DNA of 45,809 nt from Syntrophomonas sp. DTU019. Lineage in GTDB: Bacteria; Bacillota; Syntrophomonadia; Syntrophomonadales; Syntrophomonadaceae. The notes under the pieces were generated by a model. That model was not told the DNA's origin. It made no database searches and saw only the letters and a program-made list of their open reading frames with translations. Below, piece by piece: positions 37,280-43,854 of this stretch. The stretch covers positions 1 to 45,809 of the forward strand of contig LFSQ01000110.1 of assembly GCA_001512785.1 (NCBI GenBank). Reading direction: 5' to 3'. Every line of letters begins with the position of its first letter. Position 1 is the stretch's first letter. Position numbers and translations under genes: made by a program.

Positions 37280-38881
37280 TTAACAGTTCATAAAACTGAT
37301 TTCCTTTATCCAGCGCAGATCATCGCGGTGCGGATAATCGGAGCGATAATGCCCGCCGCGGCTCTCTTTACGCCATAAACAGGCCTGAATGATGATGCGG
37401 GCCAGAATCAGCATATTTACGGTCTCATAATAATTCACTATATCCCCCTGGCGCTGTATGGAATGATAGAGGCTGTCGACCTCCAGATAGGCCTGTTTTA
37501 AGCCCTTCTCATTCCTTATAATGCCCACATGTTCCCACATAATATCGCGCAGCCGGTTTCTGGCCTCCTCAGGACTAACCCCGTCCGGGCTGGGGCAAAA
37601 AACCCATCCCGAATCGAAGTGGCGGTATATCTCTTCCGCATCGACTTGACGGCGGTACATTATCTCCTCCGCCTTGTCGACAATGCGCTGCCCGAATACA
37701 ATCCCCTCCAAAAGGGAATTGCTGGCCAGCCGGTTGGCCCCATGAACCCCGGTGCAGGCGGTTTCCCCGCAGGCGTACAGTCCACTGATGCCGGTTTCCC
37801 CGTAAGTATTGGTGCCTACCCCGCCCATGATGAAATGCGCTGCCGGCGAAACCGGGACATAAGTGGTGGTGATGTCAATCCCTTTTGCCAGACAGGTGCG
37901 GTAGATGTTGGGAAAGCGCTGCGGTGCATTGGGGATAACGGTCATATCCAGGTAAACCTGAGGTTCTCCGGTCTTCTGCAGCTCATTCCATATGGCCCGG
38001 GATACGACATCGCGCGGGGCCAGCTCCAACAAGGGGTGATATTTTTCCATAAAGCGCTCCCCTTCACTGTTGTACAGTATGGCCCCTTCGCCCCGCACCG
38101 CTTCCGATATCAAAAAGCGCTGGGATTCGTGGCTGAATAACACGGTGGGATGAAACTGGAAAAATTCCATATCGGTGAGCTTGCACCCGGCCCGAAAACA
38201 TGCGGACATACCGTCACCGGTAGCCACGTCGGGGTTGGTGGTATGTTTGTAAATCTGCCCCAGCCCACCGGTTGCGATGATCAGCGCGCGGGCGCTGTAA
38301 ATGATAGGCTCACCTTTTTGGGTGTCATAGAATAAGGCGCCGAAACACTCGCTGCAGTGCTCATCAGTCAATATATCCAGCAGGAAAAGATCCTCCTTGA
38401 TCTCGATGCGCCGGTTGAATTTAAGCTTCTTTACCAGGGCGCCCCGGATAGCGGCACCGGTAGTATCGGCGGCATGCAGGATACGGGCCTTGCTGTGAGC
38501 CCCCTCGCGCGCCAGGGCAATCGCCCCATCTTTCATGTCGAATTGGGCCCCGGCAGCGATGAGTTCCCTGACCCGCTCCGGTCCTTCGCGCACCAGCACA
38601 TCCACCGCTTCTATATTGCACAGGCCGGCCCCCGCTTCCAGTGTATCCTCCAGATGAAGAAAGGGGGAATCCTCCTCATGCACTGCGGCAGCAATCCCCC
38701 CCTGGGCCAAACCGGTATTGGAATCATCTATATTTTTTTTGGTAGCAACTATCACTTCACCATACTGTGAAGCCTTCAACGCCGTAAACAAACCGGCAAT
38801 GCCGGTTCCCACTATCAGGAAATCGGTCTTTACCACCGGGGTATGGCTGCCTAAATCTTCAATGTAACGAGTAGTGATCAT
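37280..38881 (-). CDS. nadB: L-aspartate oxidase
   Basis: A 533-residue FAD enzyme that oxidises aspartate to iminoaspartate for NadA. The N-terminal FAD-binding site is FLIVGTGIAGLFTALKASQYGEVIVATK, with NTGLAQGGIAAA, HLEDTLEAGAGLC, GGLGQIYKHTTNPDVATGDGM, FFQFHPTVLF, YVPVSPAAHFIMGGVGTNTYG and HGANRLASNSLLEGIVFG. The helical C-terminal domain completes the succinate-dehydrogenase-flavoprotein architecture. In an anaerobe it must use an acceptor such as fumarate rather than oxygen; that is inference. GGGGG lies upstream of the ATG, 25 bases after nadA. Confidence 0.97.
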   Translation of the reverse strand: MITTRYIEDLGSHTPVVKTDFLIVGTGIAGLFTALKASQYGEVIVATKKNIDDSNTGLAQGGIAAAVHEEDSPFLHLEDTLEAGAGLCNIEAVDVLVREGPERVRELIAAGAQFDMKDGAIALAREGAHSKARILHAADTTGAAIRGALVKKLKFNRRIEIKEDLFLLDILTDEHCSECFGALFYDTQKGEPIIYSARALIIATGGLGQIYKHTTNPDVATGDGMSACFRAGCKLTDMEFFQFHPTVLFSHESQRFLISEAVRGEGAILYNSEGERFMEKYHPLLELAPRDVVSRAIWNELQKTGEPQVYLDMTVIPNAPQRFPNIYRTCLAKGIDITTTYVPVSPAAHFIMGGVGTNTYGETGISGLYACGETACTGVHGANRLASNSLLEGIVFGQRIVDKAEEIMYRRQVDAEEIYRHFDSGWVFCPSPDGVSPEEARNRLRDIMWEHVGIIRNEKGLKQAYLEVDSLYHSIQRQGDIVNYYETVNMLILARIIIQACLWRKESRGGHYRSDYPHRDDLRWIKEISFMNC

Positions 38882-38906
38882 TTCTCTTGCCCCCTGCCAG
38901 ACCGTA

Positions 38907-39830
38907 TCAAGGCCGGATCGCCAGCATTTTTTGCAGGGCCTGGGCGGCCTTTTCCCTGATCATTTCGGGAACCGTTATACTATGCTGCCCTTTTTCAAGA
39001 CACTCCGCCAGTACGGGTAAAGTGATCAATTTCATGTCCGGGCAGCTAAAACCGCTGCGGGCTATGAAAAATTCCTTGTCCGGGCAGTTTTTCTTCAGGG
39101 TATAGAGGAAACCCTGCTCCGTTCCGATGATGAATTGACGATCAGGGCTGCTCTTCACATATTCCAAAATGCCGCCGGTGGAGCAGACCGCATCTGCCAT
39201 GGCGGTTATCTCCGGAGTACACTCGGGGTGCACAACCAGCCTGGCCTGCGGATGTTCCTGTTGACAGGCTATGACTTCCGCTTTCTGCAGCCGGTCATGT
39301 ATGGGGCAGTATCCCGGCCATAAAATCATGTCCCGGCCGGTTTGTGAAGCTACATAATGCCCCAGATTGCGATCCGGTACAAAGATAATCCTCTGCTCCG
39401 GAGGAATGCTCCGCACCACGGCTACCGCATTGGAAGAGGTGCAGCACAGGTCGCTTTCGGCCTTCACCTCGGCAGAAGAATTGACATAGCTGACTACTAT
39501 GGCCTCAGGGTGTTCCTCTTTCAAGGCCCGCAGCTGCTGCGCTGAAACCATATCTGCCATGGGACAGCCGGCTTCAAGTGCAGGCAGCAAAACGGTTTTG
39601 TCGGGGTTCAGAATCTTGGCGCTTTCGGCCATAAAACGAACCCCGCAAAGCACTATTACCTCGGCCTGGGTTTCGGTCGCTTTTTGCGCCAGGCTTAAAG
39701 AATCCCCCACATAATCGGCTATCTCCTGAATCTCCGGCAGCTGATAATAATGGGCTAAAATCACGGCTCCTTTGAGTTGCTTTAGCTGCGCAATGTGCTC
39801 CTGCCACTGCTCGGGTACCTGCATAAGCAT
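38907..39830 (-). CDS. nadA: Quinolinate synthase
   Basis: A 307-residue [4Fe-4S] enzyme that condenses iminoaspartate with dihydroxyacetone phosphate to quinolinate. The three cluster cysteines of the family are seen in VIVLCGVRFMAESAKIL, in VVHPECTPEI and near the C-terminus in ARSGFSCPDMKLI. Also typical are ILAHYYQLPEIQEIADYVGDSL, AGCPMADMVSAQQL, YVNSSAEVKAESDLCCTSSNAV and IIFVPDRNLGHYVA. Length is standard for the short Firmicutes form. It is followed closely by nadB and nadC; together they make NAD from aspartate. It lies eleven bases after panD. Confidence 0.97.
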   Translation of the reverse strand: MLMQVPEQWQEHIAQLKQLKGAVILAHYYQLPEIQEIADYVGDSLSLAQKATETQAEVIVLCGVRFMAESAKILNPDKTVLLPALEAGCPMADMVSAQQLRALKEEHPEAIVVSYVNSSAEVKAESDLCCTSSNAVAVVRSIPPEQRIIFVPDRNLGHYVASQTGRDMILWPGYCPIHDRLQKAEVIACQQEHPQARLVVHPECTPEITAMADAVCSTGGILEYVKSSPDRQFIIGTEQGFLYTLKKNCPDKEFFIARSGFSCPDMKLITLPVLAECLEKGQHSITVPEMIREKAAQALQKMLAIRP

Positions 39831-39841
39831 ACCTTCTATCC

Positions 39842-40201
39842 TTATTTATTGATGGGCTGAATCCTGTTGTGCTCATCTACAAAGATTACTTTCGGGGTGT
39901 GCTGCCGGCACTCCTCCTGAGAAAGCAAGCTGTAGGTGAGTATGATGATTATATCGCCTTTTTGTACCAGCCTGGCAGCGGCTCCATTCAAACACATCAC
40001 CCCGGAACCCCGCTGGCCGGCTATTACATAGGTGTCAAAGCGTTCCCCGTTATTGATATTAACAATCGTCACCTTTTCGTTTTCCAGAATGTCCGCGGCT
40101 TCCATTAAATCCTCATCGATGGTGATCGAGCCGATATAATTCAGATTGGACTCGGTTACCACAGCCCGGTGAATCTTGGACTTGAGCATGCTGCGAAACA
40201 T
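39842..40201 (-). CDS. panD: Aspartate 1-decarboxylase proenzyme
   Basis: A 119-residue proenzyme that makes beta-alanine from aspartate. Self-cleavage occurs at the Gly24-Ser25 bond in [14 protein letters not shown], giving a pyruvoyl-bearing alpha chain. [17 protein letters not shown] before it, [40 protein letters not shown] and [12 protein letters not shown] after it are family signatures. GGAGG lies upstream of ATG, two bases after panC. Aspartate feeds both this enzyme and NadB next door. Confidence 0.97.
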
Positions 40202-40203
40202 GA

Positions 40204-41051
40204 TTACACCTCCACCAACAGGTTATCGATTAGTCTTGTGCTGCCGATTTTAACCGCCAGGGCTATGAGGACATTTCTGTCCACCTGTTCAACATCGCTC
40301 AGATCGGCAGCATCATAAATTTCAACGTAATCTATATTTGCCTGGGGGCTGGCTGCAATCACTGCTCGCATGATTTCTTTTAATCTGGCAACATCTCTTT
40401 CCCCTTGCTTGATCCGGCTGTGAGCCTCGGCCAAAGCCTTGCTCAATACCAGGGCCTGCTTGCGCTGCTCGGCATCCAAATATACATTGCGGGAGCTTTT
40501 GGCCAGGCCATCGGCTTCTCTTACAATTGGAACCCTGACTATTTCTATTGGGAAGTTCAGTTCGCGAACCATCTTTTCTATGACCATGGCCTGCTGTGCA
40601 TCTTTCTGCCCGAAATAGGCCTTATCAGGCAGGCATATGTTGAACAGCTTGGATACCACTGTAGCCACACCTTTAAAATGTCCGGGCCTTGAGGCGCCAC
40701 ACAGCTTGGCGGTGATTTCGCCGCCAACCTCAACAAAGGTATGGTAACCGGCAGGATACATCTCGCTTATGGAAGGTGCAAACAGGGCGTCTACTCGCTT
40801 TTCCTCCAATAAAGCCTGATCCCGGCTGAGGTCTCTAGGATAGGTGTCGAAATCCTCTCCTGCCCCAAACTGTATGGGATTGACAAATATACTGACAACT
40901 ACTGTATCGCACTGCTTGCGGGCCTGTTCTACCAGAGCCAGGTGCCCTTCATGAAGATATCCCATGGTCGGAACCAGCCCGATGCTTTTGCCGGCTTTTT
41001 TTGGTCGATGCACCATTGTTGAGCCGATCCAACCCTATCAAATACCAGCAT
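40204..41051 (-). CDS. panC: Pantothenate synthetase, reading frame interrupted at an A7 tract
   Basis: PanC joins pantoate and beta-alanine using ATP. The main frame (from 41016) has [80 protein letters not shown] and [11 protein letters not shown], all intact. The real start is almost certainly ATG 41051: AAGGAG sits six bases upstream, and that frame encodes [19 protein letters not shown], a normal PanC N-terminus. This frame closes after 40 codons and must shift by -1 at the A-run (T 40996-41002 on the plus strand) to reach the main frame. The restored protein would be 282 residues, the family length. The cause may be sequence error, a true mutation, or frameshifting/slippage; ATG 41016 has no ribosome site. 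Confidence 0.9.
40996..41002 (-). other. A7 slippery tract in panC
   Basis: On the coding strand the codons CAA AAA AAG span seven A followed by G, forming A-AAA-AAG, the same heptamer as the E. coli dnaX -1 frameshift site, in the correct phase. A -1 slip continues with GCC GGC AAA AGC, joining CIDQKK to [12 protein letters not shown] exactly as in normal PanC. One extra A in the DNA would have the same effect. Confidence 0.7.
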
Positions 41052-41113
41052 CTTTTCTCCTTACCTCCCAGGTGCCTGCACCGCGTTTAATAGCGTCATA
41101 ACGCAGTTCCGGC

Positions 41114-41944
41114 TTAATACAGTTTTTCCAGCACCTCATCTTTGATGGTGAAGCAATGTTCAGGAGCGGGAAAGGTTCCGGCCATGACCTCCTCTTTATA
41201 CTGCTGCAAGGCTTCGATAATGAGCGGTTGCAGGTTGGCAAATTTCTTTACAAACTTGGGAATGTGGCCGTGGAACATACCCAGCATGTCGTTGATGACC
41301 AAAACCTGTCCATCACAATGCGGGCCGGCTCCTATGCCAATGGTCGGGCAGGATACTTCCGCGGTGATGCGCCGGGCCAATTCGGAGGGCACACATTCCA
41401 TCACCAGGGAAAAAACCCCGGCCTCATCCAAAGCTTTAGCATCCTCAATCAGTTTTCGTGCGGTTTCCAGGTCCTTGCCCTGTACCTTGAAGCCCCCCAA
41501 TTGGTTTATCGACTGCGGGGTCAGCCCAATATGTCCCTGCACCGGGATCTGCGCATCCAGGATGGCTTTAATGGTGTCGACCCTTTCGACCCCTCCTTCG
41601 ATTTTAACCGCCTGGGCGCCTCCTTCCTGTATAAGGCGTCCCGCATTGCGGACTGCTTCGGTGATACTGATGTGATAGGAGAGAAAAGGCATATCAGCAA
41701 CCACCATAGCGTTTTGGGCCGCCCGCGAAACTGCTTTGGTATGATGTACCATATCATCCATGGTCACCGGCAGGGTGGTAGAATAACCCAACATGACATT
41801 CCCCAGTGAATCTCCTACCAGAATCATATCGATACCGGCCTGATCTATCATGCCGGCCATTGAATAATCATATCCGGTCAGCATGGTTATTTTCTCTTGC
41901 CTGGCTTTCTTCTCTTTAAGCACTGCTGTGGTAATTCTGGACAT
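41114..41944 (-). CDS. panB: 3-methyl-2-oxobutanoate hydroxymethyltransferase
   Basis: A 276-residue TIM-barrel enzyme that forms ketopantoate from 2-oxoisovalerate and methylene-tetrahydrofolate. Motifs: MLTGYDYSMAGMIDQAGIDMILVGDSLGNVMLGY, LPVTMDDMVHHTKAVSRA, DMPFLSYHIS, AVKIEGGVERVD, GHIGLTPQSINQLGGFKVQG and IGIGAGPHCDGQVLVINDMLG with the metal and substrate ligands. It begins 20 bases after the DUF2520 gene and precedes panC. Its folate cofactor depends on the folKBP genes upstream in the same run. Confidence 0.97.
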   Translation of the reverse strand: MSRITTAVLKEKKARQEKITMLTGYDYSMAGMIDQAGIDMILVGDSLGNVMLGYSTTLPVTMDDMVHHTKAVSRAAQNAMVVADMPFLSYHISITEAVRNAGRLIQEGGAQAVKIEGGVERVDTIKAILDAQIPVQGHIGLTPQSINQLGGFKVQGKDLETARKLIEDAKALDEAGVFSLVMECVPSELARRITAEVSCPTIGIGAGPHCDGQVLVINDMLGMFHGHIPKFVKKFANLQPLIIEALQQYKEEVMAGTFPAPEHCFTIKDEVLEKLY

Positions 41945-41964
41945 AATCCCACACTCCTTTTTAG

Positions 41965-42864
41965 CTACCGCTTATCTTCGAGGCTCTCTTTAATAACATT
42001 GGCGAGGATCTCTGCAAAGTCTGCCTTCTGCTCGCTGCCGATAGTTCCTTTGGCGCAGGCAATGGAGGTGGTATAAAGGCCCAAACAGGCGTATAACAGC
42101 CTGTCAGCGGGCATTTTAGCATCCAGGGCCTTAAGATGGTGAAGCACTGTTTCCACATCGCCTCTGGCTATGGGCCCGGTCAAGGCCTTGGGTATGCCAA
42201 CATCACTGATGTTGTTGACACTGCCTTGAATAAGCGGCAATAATGCCCTTGTCCCTTGCTCACGGGGAATGCCTGCTGCCTCCAGCAGCCGGATGCCAAA
42301 ATCGACTACTGTGACCAGGTAATTGGAAACCGTACAGGCCCCGGCATGATACAGGACTTTGGCGGCCCGGTCAATGATAAAATGCTCTCCTCCCAGGTTA
42401 GCTACGATGTCACGCCCTATGGCATATGCTTCCCGATCCCCTTCAATGCTGAATACTGAGCCCTGAAGATTGGCGATGGCCCTATCAACATCAGCAAAAG
42501 ACTGTAAAGGATGTATCGACAAGACAAATGCGCCAAAAGCCCTGGCACCATCCAACACCTGAGAGGTCAGGGAGCCACTCATGTGGATCACCACTTGACC
42601 GCTGTGAAAAGCGCCGCTTTCCGCCAATTCGTCCGCTACATCCTTTATGGCCATATCTGATGTGGTTATAAACAATATATCTGCTGAGCGAGAAACTTCT
42701 TGAGGTGATGAACAGGTGGTACAGCCGATCCGCTCCACAAGTACTTTTGTAGATTCGGATAACTTATCATAAACACCCGTAATCTCATATCCCTTGTTGC
42801 TGAGTACCACCCCAACAGCCGTTCCTACGACTCCCAAACCGATGATTCCGACTTTGTTGGTCAT
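41965..42864 (-). CDS. Rossmann-like/DUF2520 oxidoreductase (candidate ketopantoate reductase)
   Basis: A 299-residue protein with an N-terminal NAD(P)-binding Rossmann fold (KVGIIGLGVVGTAVGVVLSNKGYEITGVYDK, GxGxxG around residues 9-14) and a C-terminal helical DUF2520 domain (about 160-290: HAGACTVSNYLVTVVDFGIRLLEAAGIP, LTGPIARGDVETVLHHLKAL). The fold is that of 6-phosphogluconate-dehydrogenase-like reductases, as in ketopantoate reductase PanE. No panE is present, while panB, panC and panD directly follow, so it is the obvious candidate to reduce ketopantoate to pantoate. This is inference from context and not proven for the family member. It starts after a 106-bp gap following folK with no clear hairpin. 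Confidence 0.85.
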   Translation of the reverse strand: MTNKVGIIGLGVVGTAVGVVLSNKGYEITGVYDKLSESTKVLVERIGCTTCSSPQEVSRSADILFITTSDMAIKDVADELAESGAFHSGQVVIHMSGSLTSQVLDGARAFGAFVLSIHPLQSFADVDRAIANLQGSVFSIEGDREAYAIGRDIVANLGGEHFIIDRAAKVLYHAGACTVSNYLVTVVDFGIRLLEAAGIPREQGTRALLPLIQGSVNNISDVGIPKALTGPIARGDVETVLHHLKALDAKMPADRLLYACLGLYTTSIACAKGTIGSEQKADFAEILANVIKESLEDKR

Positions 42865-42970
42865 TTTCTAACCTCCTCAGGATTGCGGCTCAACTGCCGT
42901 TTCAATCAGGCCGTCTCGGTCCAATGATGGATACAAGCGGACATAAAAAGGATATCGGCGGGAGATCCCC

Positions 42971-43462
42971 CTATTCCATTTTCTTTATTTCGCTCTGCTC
43001 TCGCTCTAAAACTCTAGCCAGCACCTCCTTAACTGTCATCCCGTCCTCAGGAAGAATCAGGTCCGAGTTCACTTCTTCCAGGGGGATGAGAACAAACAAC
43101 CGTTCGCGCAGGTACGGATGAGGTATCTGCAGTTGCGGCAGATTGATCTGTTGGCCTCCGTACCAGAGAATGTCCAGATCTATAACCCGTGGGCCCCACT
43201 TTTCTCCCTCTCGGCGGCCCATTTTAATTTCTATTTGTTTAAGGTGTTCCAACAAGGCCAGGGGCCTTAACCCGGTATCTACAGCGATAACCCGGTTTAC
43301 AAACTCATCCTGATCCAGCTTGCCCCAGGGTGGGGTGAGATAAAGCGATGATACCGCAGTAACCCTGGTATCCGGCAAAGCTGCGATCTCAGCCACGCCC
43401 CGCTCCACATTCTTCACCCGATCGCCCACATTGGAACCCAGTCCGATATAAGCCTCAGTCAT
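42971..43462 (-). CDS. folK: 2-amino-4-hydroxy-6-hydroxymethyldihydropteridine pyrophosphokinase
   Basis: A 163-residue HPPK that transfers pyrophosphate from ATP to hydroxymethyldihydropterin. Motifs: EAYIGLGSNVGDRVKNVERGVAEIAAL, YLTPPWGKLDQDEFVNRVIAVDT, LEHLKQIEIKMGR, WGPRVIDLDILWYGG with the Mg-binding Asp pair, and IPHPYLRERLFVLIPLEEV. Length is standard. It follows folB by 20 bases and completes folP-folB-folK. Confidence 0.96.
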   Translation of the reverse strand: MTEAYIGLGSNVGDRVKNVERGVAEIAALPDTRVTAVSSLYLTPPWGKLDQDEFVNRVIAVDTGLRPLALLEHLKQIEIKMGRREGEKWGPRVIDLDILWYGGQQINLPQLQIPHPYLRERLFVLIPLEEVNSDLILPEDGMTVKEVLARVLEREQSEIKKME

Positions 43463-43482
43463 TATGTGCTCCCCTAAGAGGA

Positions 43483-43854
43483 TTACACCATATCCTCCCG
43501 GCAGCGATAAATCTGTACTGCCACATAATCAAACTCCCCTTCGATTGGAGCCTGTGGTTTATACACGGTGGTTTCTACAGCCGTGAGCAGGGGAAAGCGC
43601 TTCAATATGCGCAGGCTGATCTCTTCAGCCAGGGTCTCGATGAGGTTAAACGAGCTCTGCTCCACAACCTGCCTCACCTCGTGGAATACCCGGCTGTAAT
43701 CCACAGTAGCCTCTATATCATCCGTCCGGGCCGCTGTTTTTTGGTCATGGAACAAGACCACATCGACTTTAAAGGGCTGCGGCTTGTCCTTTTCCTCCGC
43801 TAAAAGTCCGTGACAGCCCCAAAAGTTCAGTCCTTTCAGAATGATTTTATCCAT
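43483..43854 (-). CDS. folB: Dihydroneopterin aldolase
   Basis: A 123-residue tunnel-fold enzyme that cleaves dihydroneopterin to hydroxymethyldihydropterin and glycolaldehyde. Motifs: IILKGLNFWGCHGLLAEEKDKPQPFKVDVVL with the catalytic-region Gly-His, DDIEATVDYSRVFHEV, SFNLIETLAEEISLRIL with the pterin-anchoring Glu, and VYKPQAPIEGEFDYVAVQI. It overlaps folP by eight bases, so the two are translationally coupled. Confidence 0.95.
   Translation of the reverse strand: MDKIILKGLNFWGCHGLLAEEKDKPQPFKVDVVLFHDQKTAARTDDIEATVDYSRVFHEVRQVVEQSSFNLIETLAEEISLRILKRFPLLTAVETTVYKPQAPIEGEFDYVAVQIYRCREDMV

Follow-up and report, generated by a model that had tools for sequence, protein, structure and literature searches.

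In Escherichia coli, the -1 frameshift signal of dnaX makes use of the heptamer A_AAA_AAG, and one tRNA-Lys serves both lysine codons in this bacterium (PMC5009743). Heptamers lacking stimulators shift in E. coli at most about tenfold over a background of about 0.05% (PMC4066793), which is far too little for the production of an essential enzyme. Sites of transcriptional slippage are often eight nucleotides or longer, and singleton frameshifts validated by BLAST are expected to reflect errors of sequencing and not true indels (Antonov et al. 2013, PMC3711429). The panC gene of Syntrophomonas sp. DTU019, which serves the biosynthesis of vitamin B5 and is located on the minus strand of the 45,809-nucleotide stretch of contig LFSQ01000110.1 analysed here (hereafter referred to as the window), shares A_AAA_AAG in the slippery phase with dnaX, while with the singleton frameshifts of draft genomes it shares a one-base break beside a homopolymer, in a conserved gene, that is absent from all the relatives; from the latter it differs in nothing notable. 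A search of the literature, judged by titles and abstracts, returned no report on panC frameshifting.

The start codon of panC is the ATG at 41051, preceded by a strong Shine-Dalgarno sequence GGAGGTAAGGAG (41068-41057, minus strand) with a predicted anti-SD duplex of about -11 kcal/mol. The first 19 codons from this ATG are typical of the PanC family, and the N-terminal piece in frame 0 (40996-41051) matches the congener sequence MLILDRVGSAQEWCMAQKK. Past CAA AAA AAG, frame 0 continues as PAKASGW... to the TAG at 40931-40929, and the ORF produced by the break (40929-41051) therefore comprises 40 codons and the stop. The conserved body of PanC lies in the -1 frame relative to that of ATG 41051, which is open from past the TGATAG stops (41038-41033) to TAA 40204-40206; it holds the remaining panC intact to the stop (40204-41004), and its first ATG, at 41016, begins an ORF of 270 amino acids. 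The two frames join at CAA AAA AAG followed by CCG (41003-40993), where a run of exactly seven A (41002-40996) is followed by G at 40995 and then by CCGGC. A -1 slip at A_AAA_AAG (41001-40995), which stands in the slippage phase of frame 0, would give the family-typical PanC sequence with no residue lost.

A search of the whole genome with the joined protein found two pieces in different frames, one with residues 1-27 (40971-41051) and the other with residues 17-282 (40207-41004), and no second copy of panC was found in the 155 contigs, the gene being single-copy. The -1-frame part alone scores 358.6 bits against TIGR00018 (pantoate--beta-alanine ligase), above the curated cut-off of 212.75 bits that defines membership; the family match is full across both frames, and the gene differs from the family by one base missing in codons 17-20. 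The single genomic copy, the TIGR00018 score and the N-terminal piece matching the family in the other frame together establish that the panC break is more than chance. The original prediction, in which the start with its strong ribosome site was out of frame with the rest of PanC and the join fell on CAA AAA AAG in the -1 phase at no cost in residues, agrees with these results; its span of 40996-41051 covers the N-terminal piece, but the slip site reaches one base further, to 40995.

Comparison with the relatives reduces the break to a single base. In the closest congener (L133, of the same genus), whose PanC protein is 88% identical, the site reads CAA AAA AAG GCC GGC in a single continuous frame. 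Pairwise alignment with the window contains one gap only, at the site (CAAAAAAA-GCCGGC versus CAAAAAAAGGCCGGC), where A7-G (40995-41002), holding the heptamer, has one base fewer than the A7-GG of the congener. The identical in-phase A_AAA_AAG is read in L133 without a shift. A second congener has CAA AAG CGA GCC at the same place, and the longest A-run near the site varies from 1 to 8 among 118 distinct PanC sites. PanC occupies one open frame across the site in about 40 other family genomes, and all of 138 PanC loci have an in-frame N-terminus except for the window's own copies. Since the same heptamer is read unshifted in L133 and the frame is continuous in the relatives, the heptamer is a by-product of spelling Gln-Lys-Lys, and the break is private to this assembly. 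Because the sister has A7-GG, the base that was lost may equally well have been an A or one of the two G. The earlier advice to consider a simple error first, ahead of mutation or frameshifting, is supported as far as a simple indel is concerned, but its choice of eight A as the intact state is not, the sister being A7-GG. Nor do the relatives uniformly show the eight A that had been named as the decisive observation against frameshifting; their A-runs vary, the closest has seven A and GG, and each keeps an unbroken frame in some other way. In another family genome (G030:C9:49759-50602), panC lies in two frames further downstream, with pieces 1-174 and 148-282 and 2 TGA read through, which is likely to be an assembly or indel break.

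The heptamer is right in both type and phase, conforming to the dnaX-type pattern X_XXY_YYZ at 41001-40995, and slippage there would produce the expected protein, as would be the case if programmed -1 ribosomal frameshifting of the dnaX kind, or transcriptional slippage, regulated PanC. This reading is nevertheless considered very improbable. The heptamer and its phase are shared by the congener L133, in which no shift may occur, and a search for a conserved frame break among the relatives found none, all the other PanC genes being continuous at the site. Unlike E. coli dnaX, panC is devoid of a stem-loop, a good SD-like stimulator and conservation, and a shift in it would produce the full-length enzyme, not an additional subunit. 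Pseudoknot-free folding downstream of the slip site is at the level of chance when compared with shuffled sequence (z -0.17 and +0.62), and the congeners, which need no shift, fold with similar energies past the site, with nothing special about them. No good SD-like stimulator is present about 10 nt upstream of the heptamer, the best candidate being a weak GGUG (-5.1 kcal/mol); strong anti-SD pairing is confined to the true ribosome site of panC. The genome also encodes a tRNA-Lys(CUU) (G000:C111:4078-4151) and so departs from the E. coli-like state of a single tRNA-Lys(UUU); decoding of AAG by a cognate tRNA should reduce slippage. An essential step dependent on a shift would need high efficiency, of which unstimulated heptamers fall far short at the rates given above (PMC4066793), and a run of seven A is short for transcriptional slippage (PMC3711429). 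The stem-loop and the upstream stimulator, both proposed earlier as checks on a dnaX-like signal setting the PanC level, were thus not found, and the length and phase of the A-run in the close relatives, the third such check, revealed an in-phase A7-GG that is not shifted and no relative sharing the break; that proposal is not upheld.

The heptamer A_AAA_AAG is by itself unsurprising, and it occurs 15 times in the slippery phase in 339 ordinary ORFs of this genome (each of at least 200 amino acids, 395 kb of coding sequence in all). The dnaX gene of the same genome (L288:1744-1750) has one linker A_AAA_AAG at codon 382 (numbered in the trimmed ORF), from which the -1 frame runs on for 10 codons to a stop, as in E. 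coli dnaX. A search for a linker heptamer at the same place in the dnaX of three congeners found none, and that of the present genome is probably due to chance; it was therefore rejected as support for the use of A_AAA_AAG as a signal, and the dnaX of the congeners counts against recoding.

The remaining choice is between an error in the consensus and a recent real deletion. The reading preferred here, with a probability of roughly 0.6, is that the panC break is a one-base consensus error. The assembled panC would be short of one base at the A7-G junction, within codons 17-20, and otherwise normal in its panB-panC-panD run; the genome itself would carry an intact panC, the base having been dropped in sequencing, assembly or consensus calling beside the homopolymer, and PanC would require no recoding. 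The single gap in the alignment with L133, the continuity of the gene in about 40 family genomes and the expectation that singleton frameshifts are sequencing errors (PMC3711429) all argue for such an error.

The same draft has at least one other single-base homopolymer break, which also favours a consensus error. In a zinc/manganese-type ABC transporter ATPase gene (L203, G000:C23, 1974-1981), a T-run, CTTTTTTGG, is one base too long, and the frame is broken in comparison with the congener L252. Identity is about 85% on either side of the T-run, and this lesion is of the same kind as that of panC. As this further break was found although only about 90 kb of the 516-kb genome sample is comparable with each congener, single-base breaks are not rare in this draft, the error rate being rough on that account; its roughness, and the shortness of a seven-base A-run for homopolymer error on some platforms, count against a consensus error. 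Three other frameshift candidates were rejected, those at window positions 38884 and 41972 as spurious antisense reading frames and that at L118:2799 as an ordinary gene boundary.

The main rival to the consensus error, possible though distinctly less probable, is a recent real one-base deletion in the strain or population, with PanC lost or reduced; what is left might be a product begun at ATG 41016, or else a little full-length PanC arising by background slippage at the heptamer. Indels adjacent to homopolymers are common as true mutations, and the -1 ORF from ATG 41016 retains the whole conserved body, losing only about 12 N-terminal residues, but this ATG is without a good ribosome site. 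In a microbial community, pantothenate produced by other members could be imported, which also counts for a real deletion. The condition of the gene speaks against a real deletion and for a consensus error. Substitutions relative to L133 number 3/1/7 by codon position before the break and 18/16/84 after it, being mostly at the third position on both sides, with both halves of the gene under purifying selection, and the lineage-specific codon changes comprise 6 nonsynonymous and 19 synonymous ones (3 and 22 in the sister). Given the third-position bias on both sides and the mainly synonymous changes, panC bears no clear sign of decay. Its neighbours are also intact, the consecutive minus-strand order being panB (41944-41114), panC and panD (40201-39842). 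On these grounds we infer an error in preference to a real recent indel. It is highly unlikely that a real deletion is combined with production of PanC by -1 slippage on an A_AAA_AAG already in place, which would be a new instance of an indel in a biosynthetic gene being rescued by a coding heptamer.

The three pan genes belong to a cofactor gene run on one strand (window 37280-43854) comprising folB, folK, a Rossmann gene, panB, panC, panD, nadA and nadB. The gene between folK and panB (41965-42864) matches dehydrogenase families (PanE-, ProC- and prephenate-dehydrogenase-like) only weakly and below the cut-offs; its product may be a reductase of the pantoate pathway or a related Rossmann protein.

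The panC break is thus an ordinary one; rather than a programmed frameshift, it is most likely a slip of sequencing or assembly, or failing that a recent mutation. A frame break on a slippery heptamer resembles recoding, but here the heptamer is plain coding for Gln-Lys-Lys, and a false lead is removed. A real indel would have a bearing on the ability of the organism to make pantothenate.
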